Below, piece after piece: positions 16,206 through 28,752 of a DNA stretch of 63,084 nucleotides (positions within the stretch are counted from its first letter, which is position 1; each line of letters begins with the position of its first letter). Under the pieces are notes generated by a model. That model saw nothing but the letters and a program-made list of their open reading frames with translations. It was not told the origin of the DNA and searched no databases. Source of the stretch: an uncultured Eubacteriales bacterium. Its GTDB lineage: Bacteria; Bacillota; Clostridia; Oscillospirales; Acutalibacteraceae. The DNA is taken from positions 1 through 63,084 of the forward strand of contig CASFEZ010000025.1 of NCBI GenBank assembly GCA_949293815.1, given 5' to 3'. The position numbers were made by a program, and so were the translations under genes.

Positions 16206-17888
16206 TCACAAATTTTTTTTATAATTTTCGGCATAGGCAAGCAGCTGCCTGGCGTTTTGCAGCTGGGTTTCGCCGATATTGGTTCCGCTGCCCATACGCG
16301 CCAGCTCATACGCTCTGCCCGCTTCGTCCAAACAGGTGACAGAGGTGGTAGTGCGCGCATCGTCAGAGGTTTTTTGTATTAAAAAGTGGGTATCCGCAAA
16401 CATCGCAAGCTGCGTTAAATGGGTAACGCAGATGACCTGGCGGCTGCGGGAGAGTTCCACCAGTTTCATTGCTACTTTTTCCGCCGCACGACCGCTGACG
16501 CCGGTATCAATTTCATCGAAAATCAGCGTTCCCACCGTATCGCAGACGGACAGTACATTTTTAATCGCCAGCATCACACGGGAAAGCTCGCCGCCGGAAG
16601 CAATACGCGCCAGCGCTTTCGGCGCTTCGCCCTTGTTGGCAGAGAACAAAAACGCCATTTTATCAACGCCGTTTTCCCCTAAGGGCGTAATGGTATCCGA
16701 CACCGTAAAGCGTACATCGGGCATATCCAAAAACCGCAGCTGCTCCTCTACCCTTGCGGCAAAATCCGCTGCGGCGGTCTTGCGCGCCCGGGAGAGAGCC
16801 TTGGCGCTCTTTTTTGCCTGCTCTGCCGCTTCGTCAAACAAACCGCTCAACTCCGCCAGCCGCTCTTCGGACAGGTCAATCTCGGCGCGGCGTTTTTTTG
16901 CTTCTTCCAGGTAGCGGAGCATATCTTCTTCAGTTGCGCCGTATTTTCGGGAAAGACGCTGTAACTCGTCCAAGCGGCTCTCTATGGCATCCGCTTCACT
17001 TTCGGAATAAGACACATCCGAAAGCCTGTTTTTTATGTCTGCGCCGATGTCGGAAAGCGTATAGGATGTTTCCTGCAAAGCGCCTGCCGTCTCCCCCAAT
17101 TCCGGCAGATAATCGGCGGCGTTTTGCAGTGCCTGCACCGCCGCGCTGACTTTTTGCAACGCGCCGTCGGCGTATTCATCACCGCTCAGCAAGAGAGAAA
17201 CTTCCGCCAGCGCATCAACAATTTTTTTCGCATTTCTTGCCACGTCGCGGCGCTTTGCCAGCTCTTCCCGCTCGCCGATTTTTAATTCGGCGGCTGTCAG
17301 CTCTTCAATCTGAAAATCCAGCCGGTCAATTTCTTTGAGTTTTTCCGACTCGTCCATGGTCAGGCGCTTCATTTCGCTGCGGATATCGCACAGGCGGCGA
17401 TAATCCGCCTGATAGGCAGCCAGCAAATCAGATAGATTACCGAACGCATCGATATAAACAAAATGACGGTCGGCGTCCAGTAAATTTTTACTGTCCATCT
17501 GGCCGTGTATATTCACAAGCCGCTCCCCCAGCGCCCGCAAAAGCGACAACGGCACCGGATAGCCGTTCACGCGGCAGGAATTTTTGCCGTCCCGGGAAAT
17601 ACGGCGAGAGAGAATGAGCGTATTCTCTTCAGATTCTACATCATTTTCAGCCAAAAAAGAAAGAACAGATTCGGACAAATCAGAAAAAACCGCCGTTACC
17701 CGCGCGCTGGACTCACCGGAACGAATCAGCTCCCGGGAGGTTTTTTCGCCGGTAATACAGTTGATTGCGTCAATGATAATGGATTTGCCCGCACCGGTTT
17801 CACCCGTCAGGCACTGAAAGCCCCGGGTAAAAGAAACAGTCGCCCGCTCAATTACGGCAATATTTTCAATCGTCAGTTCAGAAAGCAT
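16206..17888 (-). CDS. recN: DNA repair ATPase RecN
   Basis: The 560-residue SMC-like protein has Walker A GETGAGKS at residues 29-36, a long coiled-coil middle, the GGELSRVMLAIK signature and Walker B LIFDEIDTG near the C-terminus. RecN holds broken DNA ends during recombinational repair. It lies 14 bp behind argR in the conserved clostridial order. Downstream one would normally expect spoIVB, which here is displaced. Confidence 0.97.
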   Translation of the reverse strand: MLSELTIENIAVIERATVSFTRGFQCLTGETGAGKSIIIDAINCITGEKTSRELIRSGESSARVTAVFSDLSESVLSFLAENDVESEENTLILSRRISRDGKNSCRVNGYPVPLSLLRALGERLVNIHGQMDSKNLLDADRHFVYIDAFGNLSDLLAAYQADYRRLCDIRSEMKRLTMDESEKLKEIDRLDFQIEELTAAELKIGEREELAKRRDVARNAKKIVDALAEVSLLLSGDEYADGALQKVSAAVQALQNAADYLPELGETAGALQETSYTLSDIGADIKNRLSDVSYSESEADAIESRLDELQRLSRKYGATEEDMLRYLEEAKKRRAEIDLSEERLAELSGLFDEAAEQAKKSAKALSRARKTAAADFAARVEEQLRFLDMPDVRFTVSDTITPLGENGVDKMAFLFSANKGEAPKALARIASGGELSRVMLAIKNVLSVCDTVGTLIFDEIDTGVSGRAAEKVAMKLVELSRSRQVICVTHLTQLAMFADTHFLIQKTSDDARTTTSVTCLDEAGRAYELARMGSGTNIGETQLQNARQLLAYAENYKKNL

Positions 17889-17902
17889 CAGAAGATCCCT
17901 GC

Positions 17903-18367
17903 TTAAAACTTGAGTAATTTTTCCATTTTTTCTTTGGTTTCAACGGCAGATGCGGCAGTACGGCAGAGAACAAAAACCGTATCGTCCCCCGCTAAGGTGC
18001 CGACGATATTGTCGAAATTCAGAGAATCCAAAGCGGCGCACGCCGCATTGGCAGTACCGGTATGACATTTTAACACGCAAATATTTTCGGCGCAATCAAC
18101 AAAGATAACAGATTGCACAAAAATGGTATAATATTTGGAATTATGCTTATTCTGCTCATCGCTTGCTGCTGATTCCGCAACACAGTACTTATACACACCG
18201 CTGGAAGAGGGACGCTTAATCAGCTTCAGCTCCTTAATATCCCGCGATACGGTCGCCTGGGTTACCGAAATACCGCTTTCCAGCAGCTTTTCCAGCAACT
18301 CATCCTGGGTACTGATATTATACTGCTCAATCAGCCGCAAAATCAGCGCATGTCTGCTTTTTTTCAT
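17903..18367 (-). CDS. argR: Arginine repressor ArgR
   Basis: The product has 154 residues. The start is ATG 18367 (MKKSRHALIL) with AGGAG upstream; the longer open frame lacks a site. The N-terminal winged helix includes VTQATVSRDIKEL, the DNA-recognition helix. The C-terminal oligomerisation and arginine-binding domain includes GTLAGDDTVFV, with the conserved Asp pair. It represses arginine biosynthesis and activates catabolism. The position before recN is conserved in Firmicutes. Confidence 0.96.
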   Translation of the reverse strand: MKKSRHALILRLIEQYNISTQDELLEKLLESGISVTQATVSRDIKELKLIKRPSSSGVYKYCVAESAASDEQNKHNSKYYTIFVQSVIFVDCAENICVLKCHTGTANAACAALDSLNFDNIVGTLAGDDTVFVLCRTAASAVETKEKMEKLLKF

Positions 18368-18470
18368 GAAATCCGCTCTCCTGTTCTTATCTTCATCCGG
18401 TTGATGAATCCGCAAGTCATCCAACTTTATATTAAAACAAAAATAACAATTTTTTGCAAGAGGAAAATGA

Positions 18471-19325
18471 TTATTTTCCCATTTTATTGTCGAGAACATG
18501 CCAGAACCTGTCTTTTTTTATGCGGATAAAATTGGCGTAATATCCGCATTTGCGCACAAGCGCCATACCGCCGTCAGGAATTTTTACGGCGCTGCCGCCG
18601 TCCGCCGATAAAAACAGCGGGCGTTCCCGGTTGGCTGAGGACACCTGCAACACGCAGCTTGACGAAAAAATAATGCTGCGCGAGGACATGGAATACGGAG
18701 AAATCGGCGTTAAAATCATGCTTTCCAGCGTTGGTTCCACAACCGGACCACCAGCCGCAAAGGAATAAGCGGTAGAGCCGGTGGGCGTTGCCAATATAAT
18801 ACCATCGCTGCGGTAATGCTTCACCGGAAGCCCATCGCAGGCTACATCAATTTCCGCCAGATTGATTTCCGCGCCCCGGGCAAACACCGCGTCATTTAAA
18901 CAGCAGTCGGAAAAAAGCACCTCGCCGTCTTTTATGATATCCGCCTGCAGCATCATGCGAGCGTCGATAAAATAATTCCCCGCAAGCAGCGCACCCAAAA
19001 GGGACAGCTCATCCGCCTCCAACCCCGCCATAAAAGCCACATTGCCGGCGTTGATGCCCAAAACCGGCAGCCGGTGCTGCGCTGCGTTCTTGGCGTAGTG
19101 GATAATCGAGCCGTCGCCCCCCACGGCTATCACAATATTGCAGGATGCATACAATTCCTCATCCGGCAAAAATGAGCCGCCCAGCCCGTCGCACACGGAG
19201 CGGTTCCGTTCGGCAAAGGCGAAAGACACGTTCAGTTTATTTAATTGTGCACAAATGTCCCGCGTTACCGCAACTGCGCCCGGACGCGAAATATTCGGCT
19301 CAATTGCAAGAAATAATCCTGTCAC
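18471..19325 (-). CDS. nadK: NAD kinase
   Basis: The 284-residue protein has the GGDG motif (AVGGDGSIIHY, about residues 68-78), GINAGNVAFM, the CLNDAV segment (NE/D motif) and DGIILATPTGSTAYSFAAGGP. It phosphorylates NAD to NADP. It lies between tlyA (3 bp gap) and argR in the conserved order, with a 103-bp gap to argR that may carry the argR promoter. Confidence 0.96.
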   Translation of the reverse strand: MTGLFLAIEPNISRPGAVAVTRDICAQLNKLNVSFAFAERNRSVCDGLGGSFLPDEELYASCNIVIAVGGDGSIIHYAKNAAQHRLPVLGINAGNVAFMAGLEADELSLLGALLAGNYFIDARMMLQADIIKDGEVLFSDCCLNDAVFARGAEINLAEIDVACDGLPVKHYRSDGIILATPTGSTAYSFAAGGPVVEPTLESMILTPISPYSMSSRSIIFSSSCVLQVSSANRERPLFLSADGGSAVKIPDGGMALVRKCGYYANFIRIKKDRFWHVLDNKMGK

Positions 19326-19328
19326 AGC

Positions 19329-20126
19329 TCACAACTCCCGAAAGGCATCGGAAACCACTTGTTCCACCACAAAGCATTCCCTGCCGACGCCATTTGATTT
19401 TTGCAGATACAAAAGATACTCCCGATTGCCATCGCCGCCCCGAATGGGCGAATAAGCCAATCCGACCGGCGCGAGACCGTTCTGTCGCGCCTGCTGCATA
19501 ACCGATTCCAATACACGCCTGTGCAGCTTGGGATTTTTTACAATGCCGTTTTTGCCGACCAGTTCTTTGCCCACCTCGAATTGCGGTTTTACCAGCACCA
19601 CCGCGCCGCAGCCGTTTTTCAGCAGGCGGGCAATGACCGGCAGCACATAAGAAAGCGAGATAAAGGAAACATCACAGCTGACAAAATCAACCGGCGGCAG
19701 CAAATCATCGGGCAGAAAACGGATATTGGTATTTTCCAGATTCACCACACGCGGATCCGCCAGCAAGGAAGCTGCCAGCTGCCCGCGCCCTACATCAATG
19801 GCGAATACCCGCGCCGCGCCGTTTTGCAGCATACAGTCGCAAAATCCGCCGGTAGAAGCGCCAATATCGGCGCAAACGCACCCGGTCAGCGAAATATCAA
19901 AAACAGCCAGCGCTTTTTTCAGCTTTTTTCCGCCCCGTCCGACAAATTCGGTTTCCTCTGCTGCGTCCACGCAAACCCTGTCGTCCTCGCTTACCGGAAA
20001 AGAGGTTTTACAGACCGTTTGCCCGTTGACACGCACCCGTTTATTTTTAATCAGCACCGCCGCCAGCGAACGGCTGCGGCAAAATCCGTTTTGCGCCAGA
20101 TATACATCAAGCCGTTTCGTTTCCAT
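19329..20126 (-). CDS. tlyA: TlyA-family rRNA 2'-O-methyltransferase
   Basis: The product has 265 residues. An N-terminal S4 domain (RLDVYLAQNGFCRSRSLAAVLI) is followed by a FtsJ-like methyltransferase fold with the SAM loop CADIGASTGGFCDC and the K-D-K-E type residues (VLVKPQFEVGK). The family methylates rRNA and is often annotated as hemolysin A. Its start overlaps the end of dxs by 20 bp, showing tight coupling. Confidence 0.94.
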   Translation of the reverse strand: METKRLDVYLAQNGFCRSRSLAAVLIKNKRVRVNGQTVCKTSFPVSEDDRVCVDAAEETEFVGRGGKKLKKALAVFDISLTGCVCADIGASTGGFCDCMLQNGAARVFAIDVGRGQLAASLLADPRVVNLENTNIRFLPDDLLPPVDFVSCDVSFISLSYVLPVIARLLKNGCGAVVLVKPQFEVGKELVGKNGIVKNPKLHRRVLESVMQQARQNGLAPVGLAYSPIRGGDGNREYLLYLQKSNGVGRECFVVEQVVSDAFREL

Positions 20127-21984
20127 TGGGCAAATGCTCCTTGATTGTCATAACCATGCCGTCCGCGTCCAGCCGGTATTTATGCAGCTGTGAGGCAACG
20201 CTGGCATGACAGACAAACTCGTTGTCTACCGCCGTGTGGATAAAAGTGCCGGTATAGCCCCTCTCGCACAATTCGGCGCCGAGCAGCTCACCTGTTGACC
20301 CGCCGCGCTCCGCTTCCTCGAAGAAAAATACCCGCTCACTTGTCAGCAGCTGCGCATAGACCTGCTGGTCTATCGGTTTTATGCGGTTTATTTTTACGAT
20401 TTTCAACACAATGCCTTCTTCTGCCAGCTGTGCTTTGGCGTCACAGGCAAAGGCGAACTCCCGCCCATAGGCAACCACGGCAATCGCCGCATCGGCATCG
20501 CCGTAGACATCAAAGCTCTCCCCGGTGGAATGAAAATCATCGGGCAGGGGCTTTTCCGCACCCCTTGGGTAGCGCACGGCAACCAGCCCCGCATCGTGGT
20601 AAAATGCCTGCACAAAGCAGCCGCGCAGCTCACTGTAGGTGGAAGGGCTGTACACCGTAACTTGGGGAATGGTATTCAAAAAAGGTACATCCAGTATGCC
20701 CTGATGGGTTTCGCCGTCCTCGCCGACAAAACCGGCGCGGTCGATGGCCAAAAGCACCTTTTGCCCCTGTAAGGCGCAATCATGTACAATCTGGTCATAC
20801 GCGCGCTGCAAAAAAGAAGAATAAACAGCAAAAACCGGCACCATTCCGGCTTTGGCAAGACCGGAACAAAAAGTAACTGCGTGTTCTTCGGCAATACCCA
20901 CATCGAAGAACCGATCCGGATATTTCGCCTGAAAAGCTGCTAATCCCGTTCCCAGGGACATGGCGGCAGTAACGGCGCAGATGCGGCGGTCCTTGCCTGC
21001 CATATCCGCAAGAAACGTACCGAATTCTTTGGAAAAATTGTCGCCGCTGTATATCGGTTCGCCGGTGTTGATATCAAATTCCGAAATACCATGGTACAGA
21101 CTTGGGGATTTTTCCGCAAAGTCATATCCCTTGCCTTTTGTGGTATGAATATGCAGAAGCACCGGACCTTTGACCTCTTTGGCACCCTCCAGCGCGTCAC
21201 AGAGCTGCCCTATATTGTGCCCGTCAATGGGTCCCATATAGCGAAAACCGAATTGCTCGAACATGGTACTGGAGTAAATCAGGTTTTTGACAATGGTTTT
21301 TAAGTTAAAAATTGCTTTTGCGCATTTTTTGCCAATCAACGGAATTTTGTTTAAAAAGCTCTCGGTACGCTCTTTCAGGCGAAAATACGCAGGTCTGGAA
21401 CGAATGACCGCCAAATACTTTGCCATGGCGCCGACATTTTTGGAAATGGACATTTCATTGTTGTTTAAGATGACTATCAGGCGCGTATCCGACCGTCCGG
21501 CGTTATTGAGCGCTTCGTAAATCATGCCGCCGGTGAACGCGCCGTCCCCCACCACGGCAATGGCATAATTTTTGTTGCCTTTTATCTTATTGCCCTCGGC
21601 AATGCCCAGAGCGGCAGACACCGAAGTGCTGCTGTGTCCGCTGAAAAACATATCGTGTTCACTCTCGGTGGGGCGGGTAAAGCCGGAAATACCGTTCTCG
21701 GTCCGCAGGGTATCGAACCGCTCATAGCGACCGGTCAGCAGCTTATGCACATAGGCCTGATGGCCGACATCCCAAACAATTTTGTCCTCCGGTGAACGAA
21801 AGACCTTGTGCAGGGCAATGGTCAGTTCCACAACTCCCAGATTCGACGCCAGATGCCCGCCGGTTTTCGACACGGTTTCAATCAGCTCTTCCCGGATTTC
21901 CGCAGCCAGAACCTGCAATTGTTCATCATTGAGTTTTTTCAAATCCGCCGGTGCGTGAATTGTCCTTAGATACTTATCATCCAT
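20107..21984 (-). CDS. dxs: 1-deoxy-D-xylulose-5-phosphate synthase
   Basis: The 625-residue transketolase-like enzyme has the thiamine diphosphate motif GDGAFTGGMIYEALNNAG, the catalytic His/Glu region, DRAGFVGEDGETHQG and the C-terminal transketolase domain. It makes DXP, the first step of the MEP isoprenoid pathway. I chose ATG 21984 (MDDKYL) because GGTGGGA sits at the right distance. The alternative GTG at 21999 would lie inside that site. The partner gene ispA is directly upstream. Confidence 0.97.
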   Translation of the reverse strand: MDDKYLRTIHAPADLKKLNDEQLQVLAAEIREELIETVSKTGGHLASNLGVVELTIALHKVFRSPEDKIVWDVGHQAYVHKLLTGRYERFDTLRTENGISGFTRPTESEHDMFFSGHSSTSVSAALGIAEGNKIKGNKNYAIAVVGDGAFTGGMIYEALNNAGRSDTRLIVILNNNEMSISKNVGAMAKYLAVIRSRPAYFRLKERTESFLNKIPLIGKKCAKAIFNLKTIVKNLIYSSTMFEQFGFRYMGPIDGHNIGQLCDALEGAKEVKGPVLLHIHTTKGKGYDFAEKSPSLYHGISEFDINTGEPIYSGDNFSKEFGTFLADMAGKDRRICAVTAAMSLGTGLAAFQAKYPDRFFDVGIAEEHAVTFCSGLAKAGMVPVFAVYSSFLQRAYDQIVHDCALQGQKVLLAIDRAGFVGEDGETHQGILDVPFLNTIPQVTVYSPSTYSELRGCFVQAFYHDAGLVAVRYPRGAEKPLPDDFHSTGESFDVYGDADAAIAVVAYGREFAFACDAKAQLAEEGIVLKIVKINRIKPIDQQVYAQLLTSERVFFFEEAERGGSTGELLGAELCERGYTGTFIHTAVDNEFVCHASVASQLHKYRLDADGMVMTIKEHLPNGNETA

Positions 21985-22006
21985 GAAAACTGATCCCACC
22001 TAAATA

Positions 22007-22882
22007 TTAGGAAAGTCTGCCGGAAAGAGCCCCGGCGAATGCGCGCAGGGAATCCGCCGCATCACCAAAGATATCCAGCGCCTCTATTGCCATGGCGGTA
22101 TAGCGAGCCTCTTCCTCTCTCGCGCGGGCAAGCCCCAGCCGGGAAACATAGGTATTCTTTTGGTTTTTCTCATCGCTGCCTACCGGCTTGCCCAGGGTGG
22201 CGCTGTCGGAGGTGACATCCAGAATATCATCCTGAATCTGGAAAGCAATGCCCAGCGCGTCGGCAAAATTTTCCGCCGCCGCAATCTGCTCCCAGGGTGC
22301 GTCCGCCGCAATACAGCCGAGCACACAGGCGCATTTTATCAAAGCGCCGGTCTTTAAGATATCAATCTGCTTCAGTTCGTCAGCGGAAAGGGTTTTGCCC
22401 TCTCCTGCCAGATCCAGCACCTGACCGCCGATCATGCCATCCGCGCCCGCATAAAGCGAAAGCGCATCCACTGCGCGCACAATCAGCGCAGGCGGCAAAT
22501 CTGCCGCAGCCAAAATACCGAAAGCGCGCGTCAGCAGCGCATCGCCGCCCAGAAGCGCGTTCGCCTCGCCGAACCGGATATGGGACGAGGGCTGCCCCCG
22601 GCGCATATCGTCATCGTCCATACAGGGCAAATCGTCGTGAATCAGTGAATAGGTATGAATATATTCCACTGCCGCCGCAAAGGGCAGCGCTTTTTCGGTA
22701 TCACCGCCGCAAAGTTCACAAAAAGCGAGGGTCAGGGCGGGGCGCACCCGTTTGCCGCCGACGGATAAGGAATAGTTCATCACCTGACGCATCACACCGG
22801 ACGCGCCTTCGTCTTCAGGCAAAAAGTCGGTCAGCGCCTCGCGAATACGGTCGGCATATTGTTCAGTCAGCAGGCTGCTCAT
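22007..22882 (-). CDS. ispA: Polyprenyl (farnesyl) diphosphate synthase
   Basis: The 291-residue protein has both aspartate-rich motifs: DDLPCMDDDD followed by RRGQPS (first) and QIQDDILDVTSD (second). The GGKRVRPAL substrate motif is near residue 40. It condenses IPP and DMAPP to geranyl/farnesyl diphosphate. Its start overlaps the end of xseB by 20 bp, and dxs follows 22 bp later. Confidence 0.95.
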   Translation of the reverse strand: MSSLLTEQYADRIREALTDFLPEDEGASGVMRQVMNYSLSVGGKRVRPALTLAFCELCGGDTEKALPFAAAVEYIHTYSLIHDDLPCMDDDDMRRGQPSSHIRFGEANALLGGDALLTRAFGILAAADLPPALIVRAVDALSLYAGADGMIGGQVLDLAGEGKTLSADELKQIDILKTGALIKCACVLGCIAADAPWEQIAAAENFADALGIAFQIQDDILDVTSDSATLGKPVGSDEKNQKNTYVSRLGLARAREEEARYTAMAIEALDIFGDAADSLRAFAGALSGRLS

Positions 22883-23069
22883 CGCTCATTTCCTCCAGCT
22901 GTGTTATTTTTTGCCTGGCTTCTTCCAGGCATTTGGCACAGAATAAAGATAGCTTGGTGCCTTTTTCATATAATTGAACCGATTCTTCCAGGGTGGTGCT
23001 GCCGCTTTCCAGTTTTTCTACGGTTAAGCGCAGCTCCTCCAACGCCTGTTCAAAGGTTTGCTTTTTCAT
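22863..23069 (-). CDS. xseB: Exodeoxyribonuclease VII small subunit
   Basis: The 68-residue protein has the XseB pattern FEQALEELRLTVEKLESGSTTLEESVQLYEKG split into two short helices and a Cys-containing tail. It is the small subunit that binds the XseA helices in the nuclease. The gene overlaps xseA (20 bp) and ispA (20 bp), so the three are translationally coupled. Confidence 0.95.
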   Translation of the reverse strand: MKKQTFEQALEELRLTVEKLESGSTTLEESVQLYEKGTKLSLFCAKCLEEARQKITQLEEMSDEQPAD

Positions 23070-24276
23070 GGGATTTTTCCTCCGTTTGTATCACTTCGCA
23101 ATCGGCGCTGCCGTCCCAAAAACGCAGGGATACCCGATCGCCCTGCTGTAGTTTTTGAATGGAATCCACCGCCGCGCCCTCTTTTTCGCAAAGGGCATAT
23201 CCACGAGAAAGAACTTTTAGCGGACTGAGCGCCTCCAGACGGGATACCGCCTCGCCGAAAGCGTTTTGGGCAGCATCCCGCCGGTGGGAAACGGCGGTTT
23301 GCAGCCGTGTTTGCAGACTGTCGCAGTATTGCATTTGATTATCAATGGTATTTAAAATACGCCTGCGGTTGGCTTGCGGACTTACCAGGGAAAGCGCATA
23401 TTGGCGCGAAGACAGGTACCCGTCCGCCGCCCGGCGCAGCTGCCCGCGCAGCGAAAATACGGTTTCAGCCATTTCCGTTTGGTTCGGCACCGCAAGCTCC
23501 GCCGCAGCAGAAGGGGTCGGCGCGCGCAGATCAGCGGCAAAATCGCATAGGGTAAAGTCTGTTTCATGCCCCACAGCGGAAATCACGGGAATGACCGAAT
23601 CCGCCACCGCCCGTACGACGATTTCCTCGTTAAACGCCCATAAATCCTCCATGGAACCGCCGCCCCGCCCGACAATGAGAACATCGCACTGCCCGGCAAA
23701 GTTCAGCTGTTTCAACGCTGCGGCAATCGAAGCTGCCGCACCGGCGCCCTGTACCAGAACCGGCGATAGCACAACCTGAGCCATCGGCCAGCGGCGATTG
23801 AGAATTTGCAGTATATCCCGCACCGCCGCGCCGCTCTTGGCAGTTACCACGCCGATTTTGTGCGGGAAACGGGGAATCGGCTTTTTGCGCGTATCGTCAA
23901 AAAGACCTTCTTTTGCCAGTTTTTCCCTGAGCTGGGCGAACGCGATTGCCAGCGCACCCTCGCCGGCGGGAATGAGCGATTCCGCATAAAGCTGATATTG
24001 TCCGTCCCGCTCAAAGACCGAAACCCGACCGGTCAGAACAACCCGCATCCCGTTTTCCGGGCGAAAGCGCAGCTTTACGGCATCGGTACGGAACATCACC
24101 GCTTTGATGGCAGCATTTTCATCTTTCAGGGAAAAATATAAATGTCCGGATTTGTAATGCTGTACAAAATTTGAGATTTCGCCTATCACCGTCACCCGTT
24201 TCAGGCGCGGCTCGGCGTCAAACATGGATTTGATAAAAAAATTCAGTTGTGTAACCGTTAGCACAGAAGAAATCAA
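23050..24276 (-). CDS. xseA: Exodeoxyribonuclease VII large subunit
   Basis: The 408-residue protein has an N-terminal OB fold (VIGEISNFVQHYKSGHLYFSLKD), the catalytic region IGVVTAKSGAAVRDI and IVGRGGGSMEDLWAFNEE, and the long C-terminal helices. It degrades single-stranded DNA with XseB. The start is a TTG at 24276 with AAGGA upstream. It overlaps the TGA of the broken Kae1-like gene (TTGA), which shows that the upstream gene was once read to that point. Confidence 0.95.
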   Translation of the reverse strand: MISSVLTVTQLNFFIKSMFDAEPRLKRVTVIGEISNFVQHYKSGHLYFSLKDENAAIKAVMFRTDAVKLRFRPENGMRVVLTGRVSVFERDGQYQLYAESLIPAGEGALAIAFAQLREKLAKEGLFDDTRKKPIPRFPHKIGVVTAKSGAAVRDILQILNRRWPMAQVVLSPVLVQGAGAAASIAAALKQLNFAGQCDVLIVGRGGGSMEDLWAFNEEIVVRAVADSVIPVISAVGHETDFTLCDFAADLRAPTPSAAAELAVPNQTEMAETVFSLRGQLRRAADGYLSSRQYALSLVSPQANRRRILNTIDNQMQYCDSLQTRLQTAVSHRRDAAQNAFGEAVSRLEALSPLKVLSRGYALCEKEGAAVDSIQKLQQGDRVSLRFWDGSADCEVIQTEEKSHEKANL

Positions 24277-25159
24277 TGCATCGCGTCCTTTATAGCGGCC
24301 AGCAGCGCCGTGCCGACTGCATTATCTGATGAAAATTCAGTTGATGAAAAGACTGTCCCAATATAAGAGGACATATGCTCGCGCAAAATGGTATTACTCA
24401 TTACGCTCTGAGCGCCGCCCCGATGCTGTCCAAACAGAACCTTGCCACATCGCAGGGCTTTGCGCCGTCCCGGTAGCGTTTTTCACATTGATTTTCGATA
24501 CCGGAAAGGCTGGGACAGCCGTCCTTGCTGCTGATTTTCGGCGTAAAAACTTCTTTGCTCTCCAACGAGAGCCGGTCGAGCGCCTTTCCCGCCGGGAACG
24601 GCAGACCGAGCATCACGCCGACCCGGTCAATGGCCTGTCCCGCCTTCAAATCTGAGGTTTTCAGCAGGGGCTTACAGGTGAAAATCCGCTGCGGATCCGG
24701 CTCGCAGAGAACCGCTTCGGTCGTACCGCCGGACACATGAAAAGCGATAAAGGAATCGGTCAAAATATCCATTCGATCGGCGCTGTATAGCGCGGCGGCA
24801 ATATGCCCGTGCTGGTGGGAATGAAAATAGAGCGGAATCCCCTCGAGCTGCGAAAGGCTTTTGACAAAAGAAGTGCCCACGGTAAAACAGGGCATATAGG
24901 AGCCCTCCCGATCCTCGGGACGGTCGGAGGCAGCTACAGCGGAAAGCGCAATGGAACCAGGGTACTGCTCGCACAATTCCTGTATGCGCTCCGGCAGCGC
25001 TGCCGTATGGTGAAAAACCGCGTCGCTTTGTCGAAGACCCTTTTCCCCAGGTTTTACCGGCAGAAGACGGCGGCTGCTATAGACCTTGCCGCTGCCGGAA
25101 TCAAAAAAAGCGGCGGAGGTGGTATAATTGCTGGTATCGATACCAAGATAAAGCCCCAT
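24273..25159 (-). pseudogene. Kae1/TsaD-like (O-sialoglycoprotein endopeptidase family) protein, broken
   Basis: The main frame starts at 25159 with GLYLGIDTSNYTTSAAFFD and includes YFHSHQHGHIAAAL (metal-binding His pair), FHVSGGTTEAVL and AGQAIDRVGVMLGLPFPAGKALD. It stops early at about 24401, after DVARFCLDSIGAALRA. The missing family end is found just downstream in another frame: VMSNTILREHM, then EFSSDNAVGTALLAAI, ending with TGA 24273-24275 that overlaps xseA. About 20 residues between the two parts and the reading frame are lost. This ASKHA-fold paralog of TsaD is common between nusB and xseA in Clostridia; its function is not established. A true loss or a sequencing error are both possible. 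Confidence 0.85.
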
Positions 25160-25563
25160 TATTTGTCCAAACCCCGGATCACGGAACCGAGAATACCGTT
25201 AATAAAGGAAGCATCCTCCGTTGTGGCATATTTTTTTGCCAGCTCTACCGCTTCGTTGACGGAAACGCCGTTTGGCACATCGTCCATATATAAAATTTCA
25301 CATACCGCCAAGCGCAGAAGCGCCAGGCTGACCTTGGACAAACGGGACAGGCGCCAGCCTTTGGCATATTTTTCAATCATGGCGTCAATTTCTTCGCGCT
25401 GCTGCGCGGTCTTTTCCGCCAAAGCAACCGCAAAGGCATCCGGGAATTGCACATCCGGGCTCAGCCCCGCCATTTCAACCATTTCGGCAACGGTCGCCTC
25501 CGGATGAAAAATCTGTTCAAATATTAAAACAAACGCCTGCTCGCGGGATTCGCGTCTTGTCAT
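25159..25563 (-). CDS. nusB: Transcription antitermination factor NusB
   Basis: The product has 134 residues, all-helical: MTRRESREQAFVLIFEQIF at the start, then DAMIEKYAKGWRLSRLSKVSLALLRLAVCEIL and VSVNEAVELAKKYATTEDASFINGILG, the NusB signature. With NusE (S10) it binds boxA RNA and supports antitermination. I chose ATG 25563, which lies 7 nt from AGGTGG. The ATG at 25569 is too close to that site. It starts the housekeeping operon, and its leader carries its own promoter, a boxA-like sequence and a terminator. Confidence 0.95.
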   Translation of the reverse strand: MTRRESREQAFVLIFEQIFHPEATVAEMVEMAGLSPDVQFPDAFAVALAEKTAQQREEIDAMIEKYAKGWRLSRLSKVSLALLRLAVCEILYMDDVPNGVSVNEAVELAKKYATTEDASFINGILGSVIRGLDK

Positions 25564-25594
25564 GGACATACCACCTATCTGGATTTTTTCTTGT

Positions 25595-25626
25595 AAAAAA
25601 TGCCCCCGGCTTTTCAACCGAGGGCA
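25595..25626 (-). terminator. Intrinsic terminator in the nusB leader
   Basis: On the minus strand ATGCCC-T-CGG pairs with CCG-G-GGGCAT around a TTGAAAAG loop, then TTTTTT. Only 32 bp lie between it and the nusB ATG, too little for another promoter, so nusB transcripts from the upstream promoter must read through it. Confidence 0.8.
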
Positions 25627-25644
25627 TGGAAAAACAGTATTATC

Positions 25645-25657
25645 TTATCAAAGAGCG
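25645..25657 (-). promoter_or_regulatory. boxA-like element in the nusB leader
   Basis: The minus-strand RNA reads CGCUCUUUGAUAA, close to the boxA consensus for NusB/NusE (UGCUCUUUAACA in rRNA leaders, CGCUCUUA in lambda nut). It lies between the promoter and the terminator hairpin. Identification is by pattern only. Confidence 0.5.
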
Positions 25658-25675
25658 GTACCGTCGGTTTGTATT

Positions 25676-25704
25676 ATTATACCAAAACCTTGGCGGTAAA
25701 GCAA
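25676..25704 (-). promoter_or_regulatory. Sigma-A promoter of the nusB operon
   Basis: TTGCTT (25704-25699) and TATAAT (25681-25676) have a 17-bp spacer. The predicted start is near 25669, giving a leader of about 105 nt that contains the boxA-like element and the terminator. Confidence 0.7.
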
Positions 25705-25746: not shown

Positions 25747-28734
25747 CTATTGTGCATCAAAGGTATCCAGTTTCAGCGCAACGCGCAGGATCATGCGTGC
25801 GTCTGAAGAACGGATGATACCGTTTTTGTCCGTATCGGCGGCAAGCGCCTGACGGGGATTCAGCATCTCCAGCGAAAGCGCCGCACGAAGCGCCAGCCGC
25901 GCGTCCGCACTTGTCACTTTGCCGTCGCCGTTCACATCGCCAAGGGTATAGTCCGGCTCGCCGGGCGTTTCCGATGGAGTCGGCGGGGCGGATGTGATGG
26001 GCAGTGTGATATCCGCATCCGGCGCGGTCGTATGCGGCGCAGTGGACTGAGAAATCGGCTCGGTGGTGGTTACAGGGGCGGCGGATGTCGTTTCAGGATC
26101 TTGCGCGGTGGTATCGGGAGCGGGATCCGGCGCCTCGTCCACCCGTCTTGCGGTCAGCAGCGGTTCATTGTGCTCGCCAAAGGCAATGCCGTTCCAAAGC
26201 GCATCACCGCCCGCATAAACCACTCTGTCCAGATTCAAACAGAACGCCATATCCTCAACCACCCGCAGCCCGGCGGGAAGTGTAATCTGCTCCAGCTGCT
26301 CTTCTCCGCAGAACGCGGCTTTCCCGATATTATCAACGCTGTCAGGAACGGTATAAGCCGCAAGGGAAAGCCCCATGGGATATTGCAAAAGCAGGGTTTG
26401 TTCTTTATCATACAAAACACCGTAGGCATCGGTATAATAGTAAGCGTTGTCGGGCGATACGGAAATACCGTTTAAGGAAGAACAAAAGACAAACGGCGAA
26501 CGACCGATTTCCACCACCGAAGCGGGAATATCCGCTTTTGTCAGGTGCGTACAGCCGCTGAACGCGGATTCGCCGATATACTGTAAGCTATTCGGCAAAT
26601 ACACGGCGGAAAGATTTTTGCATTCGCTGAACGCCAGCACTGCGATGGTGCGCGTGCCGTCCCGAACGGTATAGGCGCCGTCCAGCGTATCTTCCGCCGA
26701 CAGCAGACAGTTCCCCAGATATAATACGCCGTCCTGCCAGTTGTCCGGAGTATCATAGAAAGCGGTATAAGTAAAGGTTGAAGCGCCGATGCTGCGAATA
26801 TTATCGGACAAATCAATCTCATACAGCGCCTCGCAGAAAGAGAAGGCAGACTCGCCAATGACAGAAACAGAATCGGGAATGTCTATCGACGGCATCGAGG
26901 AACAGCCGGTAAATGCATAGTCGCCAATACTTGTCAAACTATTCGGGAGCGTAACCGTAGAAAGCTGATCGCAATGGGCAAAGGCATTTTCCGGCAGGAC
27001 GGTTAAGCCATCGTCGATAACAACCGATGACAGTTGTTCGCATTCCGAAAACGCGCCGTCACCGATTTCCGCAACGGATGCCGGGATAGTCAGCGCCAGG
27101 ATGCCGCTGCCGGCAAACGCGCCCGCCCCGATGGTGCGAATGGTCTCAGGCAAAATGACATCTTCGATTTCGGTATGGTTTGCGAAAACATCCGCCCCGA
27201 TGCCGGTCACGGTTAATCCCTGCACCTGTGCGGGAATCTCAATCTGCCGCAGCTCATCGCCCTCATAGGCGCTTATTACCAGGCCGCCGTTGCCATCAGA
27301 GGAAAAATACAGCGTGCCCTCCTGCTGCCCGCCGGTGTTCGGATCGGTCGTCTCATCGGCAGTTGTCGGAACCGATGTGACGGGATGCGTGGATTCCACA
27401 TAATCCACAGCATCGGGACGCAGGGTATACAGCGTCGGCTGACTGCGGTCAGTTACATACCAGCGCACTGCGCCGTCCGAGCAGAGAATCGGCTGGCAGT
27501 CGGAAAGGGGCGCCTGTGAGGTAACCATTCCGCTGAGAGGCGCACCATCGCCGTTTACAATCACGGATTTTAAGACCGTATTGCCGCTGGCGGTTTCTTC
27601 CCATAATACCAGAAAACGCTCGCCGCTAAGCGCCACAAGGTGGGGGTTGCCGACAGAAACAGCATCGTCATCCGCGTAATTTGTCAGCCAGTGAATCTCC
27701 GTGGCAATCAAATCTTTATCGGTAACAGTTAAAAAGATATTTCTTGTTCCGAAGGGATCGTAGCTCTCCGCGCTGCTCTGGTCAACGGAATTACCGGCTA
27801 TGAGAACGGTGTTTTCTCCGAGCGCCAGACCGCCGACGGCAACGCCGGTATCGTTTGCGCCAATGCTTCCCTGAATGGCAAAGGGTAAGGTATAGGAAAC
27901 CCGGGTAACGGCGCCGTTCACAAGGCAGCGGGTCAGCGCAATCGCCCTCGGATAGGCATCGCCATGGTCAACCCGATAAACATAGGTGCCGTCCGTAGCG
28001 ATATACTGGTTAAATGAATGGCTGACATAGCCCGCCTGCCGCAGGTTCATGACATCGTAAAAAGAGTCCGCAACCGTCATGGTGTCTTCCTCAATCACAA
28101 AGGTCATATTCGCCTGGTGGTGCAGACCGGCTTCATCGGCATACATTTCATGGCTGGTATGAATATACAGCTTGCCGCCGGTCTCGACCATACGCGGCGT
28201 ACCGGCATCAAAGGGAATATAGGTATTCGCGCCGTATATGCTGCAAGCATCGATTCTTGTCCAGTCCTCGGCATATTTTACAATGCGCAAAACCTCCGTG
28301 CTGTCGCTCTCCTGGGGATTTTCCGCACCGAAAAGCACATATCGGTAGTTTTCTCCGGCAAAATACCCGCCGAACAGCTCCAACTCACCGGCAATAGCCG
28401 TTTCGGATTGCAGCGCACCTGCCGCATCAAAAATTTCGGCGAGCAGGCTTTCACCCGTCCATTCCACCCGCTCAAAGCCGCCATCCGCACGCGCGGACAG
28501 ATAGGAAGCAACCGGAACCGCCCATCGATCGGCATTGACATATTCATGGCCGGACAGATTCGATGAGGACGCGCCATGTAGAGTAATAGAAGAAAGATAG
28601 CGGTTATCCTCCGCTGCCGCTGCGATGGAAGAAGACAGCGACGACCAGCCTACGGGTATAAACAAGGACAGAAGAAAAAGCATTGCCAAAAAAGCGGCGC
28701 ATGTTCGCCGTGTTGCCCTACTGCATTTTTCCAT
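25747..28734 (-). CDS. Secreted BspA-type leucine-rich-repeat protein with dockerin
   Basis: The protein has 995 residues. ATG 28734 is preceded by AGGGTG at 8 nt. A basic start and hydrophobic core (about residues 10-38) form a signal peptide. Residues about 45-450 are beta-rich and probably a propeller-like domain. Residues about 470-880 hold BspA/LRR_5-type repeats (ETIRTIGAGAFAGSG, NSLTSIGDYAFTGCS, DSVSVIGESAFSFCE and others). A Thr/Pro-rich linker (about 885-935) leads to a type I dockerin with two repeats, DVNGDGKVTSADARLALRA and DTDKNGIIRSSDARMILR. Dockerins bind cohesins, so the protein is probably surface- or cellulosome-like-complex-bound. It stands between spoIIIAH and nusB, where Clostridia usually have an Asp23-type gene. 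Confidence 0.88.
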   Translation of the reverse strand: MEKCSRATRRTCAAFLAMLFLLSLFIPVGWSSLSSSIAAAAEDNRYLSSITLHGASSSNLSGHEYVNADRWAVPVASYLSARADGGFERVEWTGESLLAEIFDAAGALQSETAIAGELELFGGYFAGENYRYVLFGAENPQESDSTEVLRIVKYAEDWTRIDACSIYGANTYIPFDAGTPRMVETGGKLYIHTSHEMYADEAGLHHQANMTFVIEEDTMTVADSFYDVMNLRQAGYVSHSFNQYIATDGTYVYRVDHGDAYPRAIALTRCLVNGAVTRVSYTLPFAIQGSIGANDTGVAVGGLALGENTVLIAGNSVDQSSAESYDPFGTRNIFLTVTDKDLIATEIHWLTNYADDDAVSVGNPHLVALSGERFLVLWEETASGNTVLKSVIVNGDGAPLSGMVTSQAPLSDCQPILCSDGAVRWYVTDRSQPTLYTLRPDAVDYVESTHPVTSVPTTADETTDPNTGGQQEGTLYFSSDGNGGLVISAYEGDELRQIEIPAQVQGLTVTGIGADVFANHTEIEDVILPETIRTIGAGAFAGSGILALTIPASVAEIGDGAFSECEQLSSVVIDDGLTVLPENAFAHCDQLSTVTLPNSLTSIGDYAFTGCSSMPSIDIPDSVSVIGESAFSFCEALYEIDLSDNIRSIGASTFTYTAFYDTPDNWQDGVLYLGNCLLSAEDTLDGAYTVRDGTRTIAVLAFSECKNLSAVYLPNSLQYIGESAFSGCTHLTKADIPASVVEIGRSPFVFCSSLNGISVSPDNAYYYTDAYGVLYDKEQTLLLQYPMGLSLAAYTVPDSVDNIGKAAFCGEEQLEQITLPAGLRVVEDMAFCLNLDRVVYAGGDALWNGIAFGEHNEPLLTARRVDEAPDPAPDTTAQDPETTSAAPVTTTEPISQSTAPHTTAPDADITLPITSAPPTPSETPGEPDYTLGDVNGDGKVTSADARLALRAALSLEMLNPRQALAADTDKNGIIRSSDARMILRVALKLDTFDAQ

Positions 28735-28752
28735 AATTTGCACACCCTATAT

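Follow-up and report, generated by a model that had tools for sequence, protein, structure and literature searches.

Binding of NusB–S10 to the RNA element boxA is established in Escherichia coli (PMC10931766). In Enterobacteriaceae, the Nus-complex gene suhB is autoregulated via boxA through a translation block and Rho (Baniulyte et al. 2017, PMC5725501). The survey in that study, which covers γ-proteobacteria only, found no boxA directly before nusB; it did report a putative boxA before ribH-nusB in six Pseudomonas species, for which nusB autoregulation was suggested. Similarly, the leader of the rimP-nusA-infB operon (rimP-leader) contains a conserved terminator that is proposed to respond to the operon's own product (Naville and Gautheret 2010, PMC2965389). 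Described here is the leader of nusB in an uncultured bacterium of the family Acutalibacteraceae (Clostridia), analysed within 63,084 nucleotides (nt) of contig CASFEZ010000025.1, a stretch referred to below as the window. This leader is almost certainly a conserved attenuator, to judge from its sequence and that of its relatives. It places a boxA-like segment between the predicted RNA 5′ end and an intrinsic terminator, and the segment, when compared over relatives, resembles the ribosomal RNA (rRNA) boxA of the family.

An intrinsic terminator sits between the promoter and nusB, as expected of an attenuator, in a leader of approximately 75 nt. The parts of the leader and the gene are, in the order of transcription:

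25676..25704, minus strand: promoter, −35 TTGCTT (25704-25699), 17 nt, then TATAAT (25681-25676), read from sequence
25660..25669, minus strand: segment A, AACCGACGGU (AACCGACGGT in leader reading), predicted RNA 5′ end and 5′ strand of the antiterminator
25635..25657, minus strand: boxA-like segment CGCUCUUUGAUAAGAUAAUACUG (CGCTCTTTGATAAGATAATACTG in leader reading), aligned to the family rRNA boxA
25657-25645, minus strand: boxA-like core CGCTCTTTGATAA, read from sequence
25616..25627, minus strand: terminator 5′ arm, containing segment B (25625-25616), from hairpin scan and folding
25600..25611, minus strand: terminator 3′ arm (segment C), from hairpin scan and folding
25595..25600, minus strand: terminator U tract TTTTTT, the hairpin running into these six T
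25571..25576, minus strand: ribosome site AGGTGG, 7 nt ahead of the ATG at 25563
25159..25563, minus strand: nusB, matching TIGR01951 at 115.4 bits (cut-off 88.35), with a start codon shared by relatives

The order and coordinates of the promoter, boxA-like RNA, six-U hairpin and ribosome site agree with those in a first-pass annotation of the window, made from its sequence alone. TGG precedes TATAAT to give an extended −10, and the −35 matches TTGACA at three of six positions; a generic scan lists an alternative overlapping register, TTTACC-16-AATAAT. TATAAT and segment A are 6 nt apart, and the position of the −10 predicts an RNA start at approximately 25669. The terminator hairpin (25627-25600) has 12 pairs and a folding energy of −21.0 kcal/mol, and is also listed by the generic scan. 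The first-pass annotation stated that no promoter fits between hairpin and gene, and this held: a scan of 25660-25564 for TAnnnT returned TAAGAT (25647) and TACTGT (25639), both before the hairpin, and none after it.

The first-pass annotation overlooked an antiterminator. Segment A can pair with segment B of the terminator 5′ arm at −10.7 kcal/mol with one mismatch. In window RNA ending at B, before the 3′ arm, the A:B pairing is the minimum-energy fold (−11.8), and the same holds for 11 of 13 other leaders folded to the equivalent point; window RNA that includes the 3′ arm folds as the terminator (−28.8), and the 13 others likewise reach lower energies once it is included. Many leaders share a common layout, in which TATAAT is followed after 6 nt by GUGGA, then AG-YUUGAAAA and later CCCUCCAC-loop-GUGGAGGG-UUUUU. 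GUGGA, at the predicted RNA 5′ end, repeats part of the terminator 3′ arm, and the 5′ arm is a possible pairing partner for it.

Across 27 leaders from 13 genera, pairing between the terminator arm and the 12 nt ahead of the boxA core has a per-genus mean of −8.9 kcal/mol, compared with −3.0 to −4.4 kcal/mol at nine other offsets. This set comprises 24 leaders found by the core pattern, less L046, whose core lies inside asp23, and L253, a near copy of L229, with L032, L033, L168, L242 and L284 added by eye and the second hairpin of L229 likewise chosen by eye; its fixed window shortened segment A of the window genome (G000) to −5.7, the whole segment giving −10.7. Furthermore, variants of A and of the arm change together: GAAGGCGCA/UGCGCCUUC in the congener G043, CCGGUGC/GUACCGG in genus g134, CGGUGG/CCGCCG in g135, ACAGUGGA/UCCGCUGU in g101, CGGCAG/CUGCCG in g47 and, with one mismatch, AACCGACGGU/GCCCUCGGUU in the window. 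Swapping partners between leaders in a permutation test gave p = 0.0018 over 13 genera. The same test on 21 hand-picked leaders gave p = 5e-5 (0.0017 for the ten variant leaders alone), values that are inflated by the copying of segments by hand from leaders already inspected, most of them with a visible core; the ends of the segments differ by up to 2–3 nt (g82a, g95, G000), the segment of g47 is 15 nt long, and g119, which has no boxA, was omitted. The two predicted pairings of the arm exclude each other, and the covariation of A with the arm is seen in leaders that were anchored at boxA and partly picked by eye.

NusB was detected in 389 of 398 family genomes and in all seven genomes of the window's genus, four of which (G000, G303, G242, G043) carry the promoter, middle segment and terminator. 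Upstream regions were taken from the best-scoring nusB matches, giving 148 regions from 57 genera that are not a random draw; 66 of them have a hairpin of −11 kcal/mol or below with a T tract within 80 nt of nusB, a few of these inside coding sequence. A count of k-mers made with no prior motif, against dinucleotide shuffles, placed among the most enriched the terminator arm CCCTCCAC in 11 genera (0.03 expected), the promoter GGTATAAT in 11 genera (0.63 expected) and the boxA core AGCTTGA in 10 genera (1.0 expected). Correspondingly, TGGTATAAT stands at the equivalent position in 21 of the 25 related leaders listed, the remainder having closely similar −10 sequences.

Nine leaders of g127, g26 and g32, genera other than the window's, served to build a covariance model; in a MAFFT alignment of mixed leaders the terminator arms were shifted by one column. 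In the window the sole match of the model at an expectation value (E) of 10 or below is 25706-25593, aligned from −35 to T tract, with a score of 16.1 bits (E 0.19 for 86,883 bases) that is weak alone. Of the 398 family genomes, 65 match at E ≤ 0.01, the window's genus not among them. The 30 best family matches, 21 of them outside the training set and together spanning 10 genera, are without exception located immediately ahead of nusB; among four weaker matches that were read, L337, L341 and L344 precede nusB and L338 does not. A draw from the order (394 genomes) yielded 13 genomes with a match, four of them outside the family, and a draw from the class (341 genomes) yielded seven, again with four outside. 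Seven of these eight outside matches have no nusB within 1.5 kb, and the contig of the eighth, L345, ends 47 nt past the match; they look like ordinary terminators. The positions of matches within and outside the family tie the element to nusB, and at the sensitivity of the model it is seen only in this family. With Rfam 15, the window returned only a tRNA at gathering score, and 14 leader loci searched at E ≤ 1 gave three matches, all in L261, the best at 34.1 bits of the 55 needed.

This distribution bears on one alternative, an ordinary terminator with a chance boxA-like word. A 150-nt scan gives the window site no significance, and stems similar to CCCTCCAC end unrelated transcripts elsewhere (for example, L348). 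Set against this are the location of the hairpin between promoter and gene, the same layout in three congeners and its recurrence before nusB in many genera. Conservation largely contradicts the ordinary-terminator reading, which is very improbable.

Two leaders of genus g101, L229 and L253, have two consecutive terminator-like hairpins between promoter and nusB. In genus g47 (L143, L162, L170, L237), asp23 lies ahead of nusB and its stop codon is overlapped by a close boxA match, ACCTTGAACATCGAATAGC, with a terminator following; CGGCAG ahead of the match is complementary to the terminator arm, a recurrence of the layout in a different gene context. Words similar to the g47 match also occur in L140 and L164. 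A separate candidate was set aside: in Oscillospiraceae, asp23 ends in FDK-stop (CCTTTGATAAATAA) approximately 30 nt before nusB (many of L073-L105), and this boxA-like string is probably a coding effect.

As a 16S gene was not found in the window genome assembly, rRNA leaders of other family members served as the boxA reference. ACCTTGAAAATTAAACAACG occurs in 30 of 30 family rRNA loci, upstream of the 16S start in 28, the start pattern not being found in the other two; the congeners G043, G303 and G242 carry the string as well, at contig ends or ahead of 16S. The nearest match to rRNA boxA in the window genome itself, L186 (G000:C12:2224-2243, plus strand; 2 mismatches), is away from any rRNA gene, approximately 200 nt ahead of an open reading frame (ORF) starting MKKSELKELYQMMFPEYPDIVTV in an apparent mobile element.

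Likeness to this reference was measured in the 28 nt after segment A, in 21 segments from 17 genera that were copied by hand; this sample favoured a visible boxA core and is not a census, so its values are inflated. The segments totalled 229 against 172 for shuffles (standard deviation 5.8; z = 9.8), and a reversed-motif control on the same segments gave 181 against 172 (standard deviation 6.0). Ten of the 21 reached p < 0.05 singly, including every leader tested from the window's genus (G000, the window, 0.0235; G043, 0.0232; G303, 0.0020; G242, 0.0002), and 16 of the 17 genera have at least one leader above its shuffles. Because visible cores had been favoured, the comparison was repeated on leaders selected blind to boxA, by a −10 followed by at least five bases complementary to the terminator arm. 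This gave z = 7.5 for 21 leaders from 12 genera and z = 4.2 with one leader per genus, although the set kept L242 and L304, whose segments begin from a wrongly assigned −10 and fall below their shuffles; the reversed motif gave z of about −0.5. Eight of the 21 had p < 0.05, the window not among them. Shared descent of the leaders renders all of these values optimistic.

The window site judged singly is not firm (p from 0.02 to 0.82), so the case for boxA rests on the comparison. The 2.46-Mb genome has four exact copies of YGYTCTTTGAWAA, all but the leader's own within open frames; at up to one mismatch there are 73 sites, compared with 29 for the reversed pattern. A 150-nt scan with the rRNA boxA consensus before 108 nusB genes was abandoned for its weak power per site; 26 leaders scored at least 13 where 6.9 were expected, some of them inside asp23.

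Several observations weigh against a boxA-dependent switch. The window site scores 11 of 20 against the family rRNA boxA in the 150-nt scan (p = 0.82), and a segment set by rule, which loses the 3′ end of boxA, gives p = 0.31, compared with 0.0235 for the hand-set 28-nt segment. Genus g119 (four genomes; leaders L332, L333, L334 and L336) keeps the promoter, segment A (GUGGA) and the terminator hairpin and lacks boxA (p = 0.76), while an rRNA leader of the same genus, L112, has a canonical one; one type of g82 leader has a degenerate core only. No such terminator was found in three of the seven genomes of the window's genus (L034, L035, L037). Two of the folded leaders, L261 and L302, adopt a structure other than A:B, L279 (g51) combines boxA and terminator with a poor A (−4.1), and a search for A with no boxA anchor did not reach significance (p < 0.05 in 6 of 66 leaders; Fisher p = 0.07).

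Two of these, the boxA-free g119 leaders and the weak single match in the window, favour an attenuator that answers to another effector or to polymerase speed, with NusA, pausing and the RNA 5′-end state as examples, the boxA likeness being incidental or a relic. That account has an appreciable chance but is unlikely, as boxA likeness is significant in leaders selected without reference to boxA, and the controlled gene encodes a boxA-binding protein. NusB–S10 acting on boxA is the probable effector. In terms of the first-pass annotation, the boxA label is supported over relatives, by the rRNA boxA of the family and of three congeners, and is not firm for the window site by itself; the expected retention of boxA alongside the hairpin was borne out in 16 of 17 genera of a sample that favoured the core and failed in g119; and the attenuator layout recurs before nusB in many genera and is absent from three genomes of the window's own genus.

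Since A can pair with B and adjoins boxA, the mechanism is likely to be a choice between two hairpins. RNA polymerase would start at approximately 25669, and the first ten bases of the RNA (A) would be able to pair with B. Once A:B had formed, the terminator would be impossible and nusB would be transcribed. boxA follows A by a few bases and would be made earlier than B. Protein on boxA should hinder A:B and free B, so NusB–S10 would switch off the operon that encodes NusB: with plentiful free NusB–S10, boxA would be bound, B would pair with C and transcription would stop before nusB, a negative feedback. When rRNA boxA sites absorb NusB–S10, A:B would form and the operon would be read. Whether NusB represses its own operon via the leader is judged an even bet. 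The wider proposal, a family-wide RNA switch that gauges free NusB–S10 against rRNA boxA, such that the nusB-recN operon is read in step with rRNA synthesis, falls slightly short of even.

The opposite direction would follow from processive antitermination, in which NusB–S10 on boxA, with NusA and NusG on RNA polymerase, would carry transcription past the terminator and NusB would raise its own expression, a reading close to the wording of the first-pass annotation. boxA is the rRNA antitermination signal (PMC10931766) and lies upstream of the terminator here. Such a mechanism, however, gives no part to segment A, which is conserved and covaries with the terminator arm; in the available text of PMC5725501 and PMC10931766, it is Rho-dependent termination that the rRNA complex counters; and positive feedback would be odd for homeostasis. 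It is considered improbable, and repression is the better bet on direction. The observation in the first-pass annotation is confirmed, and its interpretation is partly supported and refined: an attenuator in the leader that governs read-through into nusB is strongly supported, whereas a choice between two hairpins is likelier than NusB simply altering termination.

The genes that would be controlled with nusB follow it:

16206..25159, minus strand: co-directional genes after nusB (tsaD-like, xseA, xseB-like ORF, ispA-type, dxs, tlyA, nadK, argR, recN)

Profile search identified XseA, FPP synthase, Dxs, TlyA, NAD kinase, ArgR and RecN, with a TsaD-like protein below cut-off; the 68-aa ORF in the place of xseB is named from position alone. 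nusB and its nine co-directional followers make up the ten genes, ending with recN, that the first-pass annotation had counted, and they are presumed to form a single transcript. Upstream, at 25747-28743 on the minus strand, lies a gene for a 998-aa leucine-rich-repeat surface-type protein with weak matches to the HupY and CelK profiles and a C-terminus that looks dockerin-like in its sequence.

If the switch operates as proposed, isoprenoid, NAD, DNA-repair and rRNA-methylation genes of the nusB-recN operon would be tied to rRNA synthesis, and boxA would act through an intrinsic terminator and antiterminator, not through Rho or translation. With boxA coupled to an intrinsic attenuator, autoregulation of a Nus factor would have a second route, in Clostridia. 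The link between rRNA synthesis and NusB supply would become directly testable, in a leader short enough for easy in vitro work. The leader also defines an RNA element without an Rfam entry.

No account of the nusB leader element was found in a search of open-access literature. Nus autoregulation via boxA is known from suhB; the form with an intrinsic terminator is new. The nusB leaders share with the family rRNA boxA a TTGAAAA core and an A-rich stretch behind it; across the 30 family loci the rRNA copies show no variation in 20 nt, whereas the leader copies have diverged and are set in an attenuator. In Bacillus, pyrG-type attenuation has the 5′ end of the transcript pair with one arm of a terminator, and CTP is sensed by extra G residues joined to that end. 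The nusB leader can likewise pair its RNA 5′ end with a terminator arm, but shows no signature of 5′ G addition. In Pseudomonas, boxA lies ahead of ribH, and the available text of PMC5725501 describes no terminator or antiterminator there. Like the nusB leader, the rimP-leader places a conserved terminator at the head of a Nus-factor operon; it differs in gene, in its GGGc..gCCC stem and, in the available text of PMC2965389, in having no visible antiterminator, where the nusB leader has an antiterminator and boxA. The leader also resembles that of suhB, a gene that encodes a Nus-complex member, carries boxA in its 5′ leader and is repressed by the complex (PMC5725501). There, the available text gives a limit of 50 nt between boxA and the start codon; here, the core ends at 25645, 81 nt before the start codon at 25563 and away from the ribosome site, with an intrinsic terminator and an antiterminator between.
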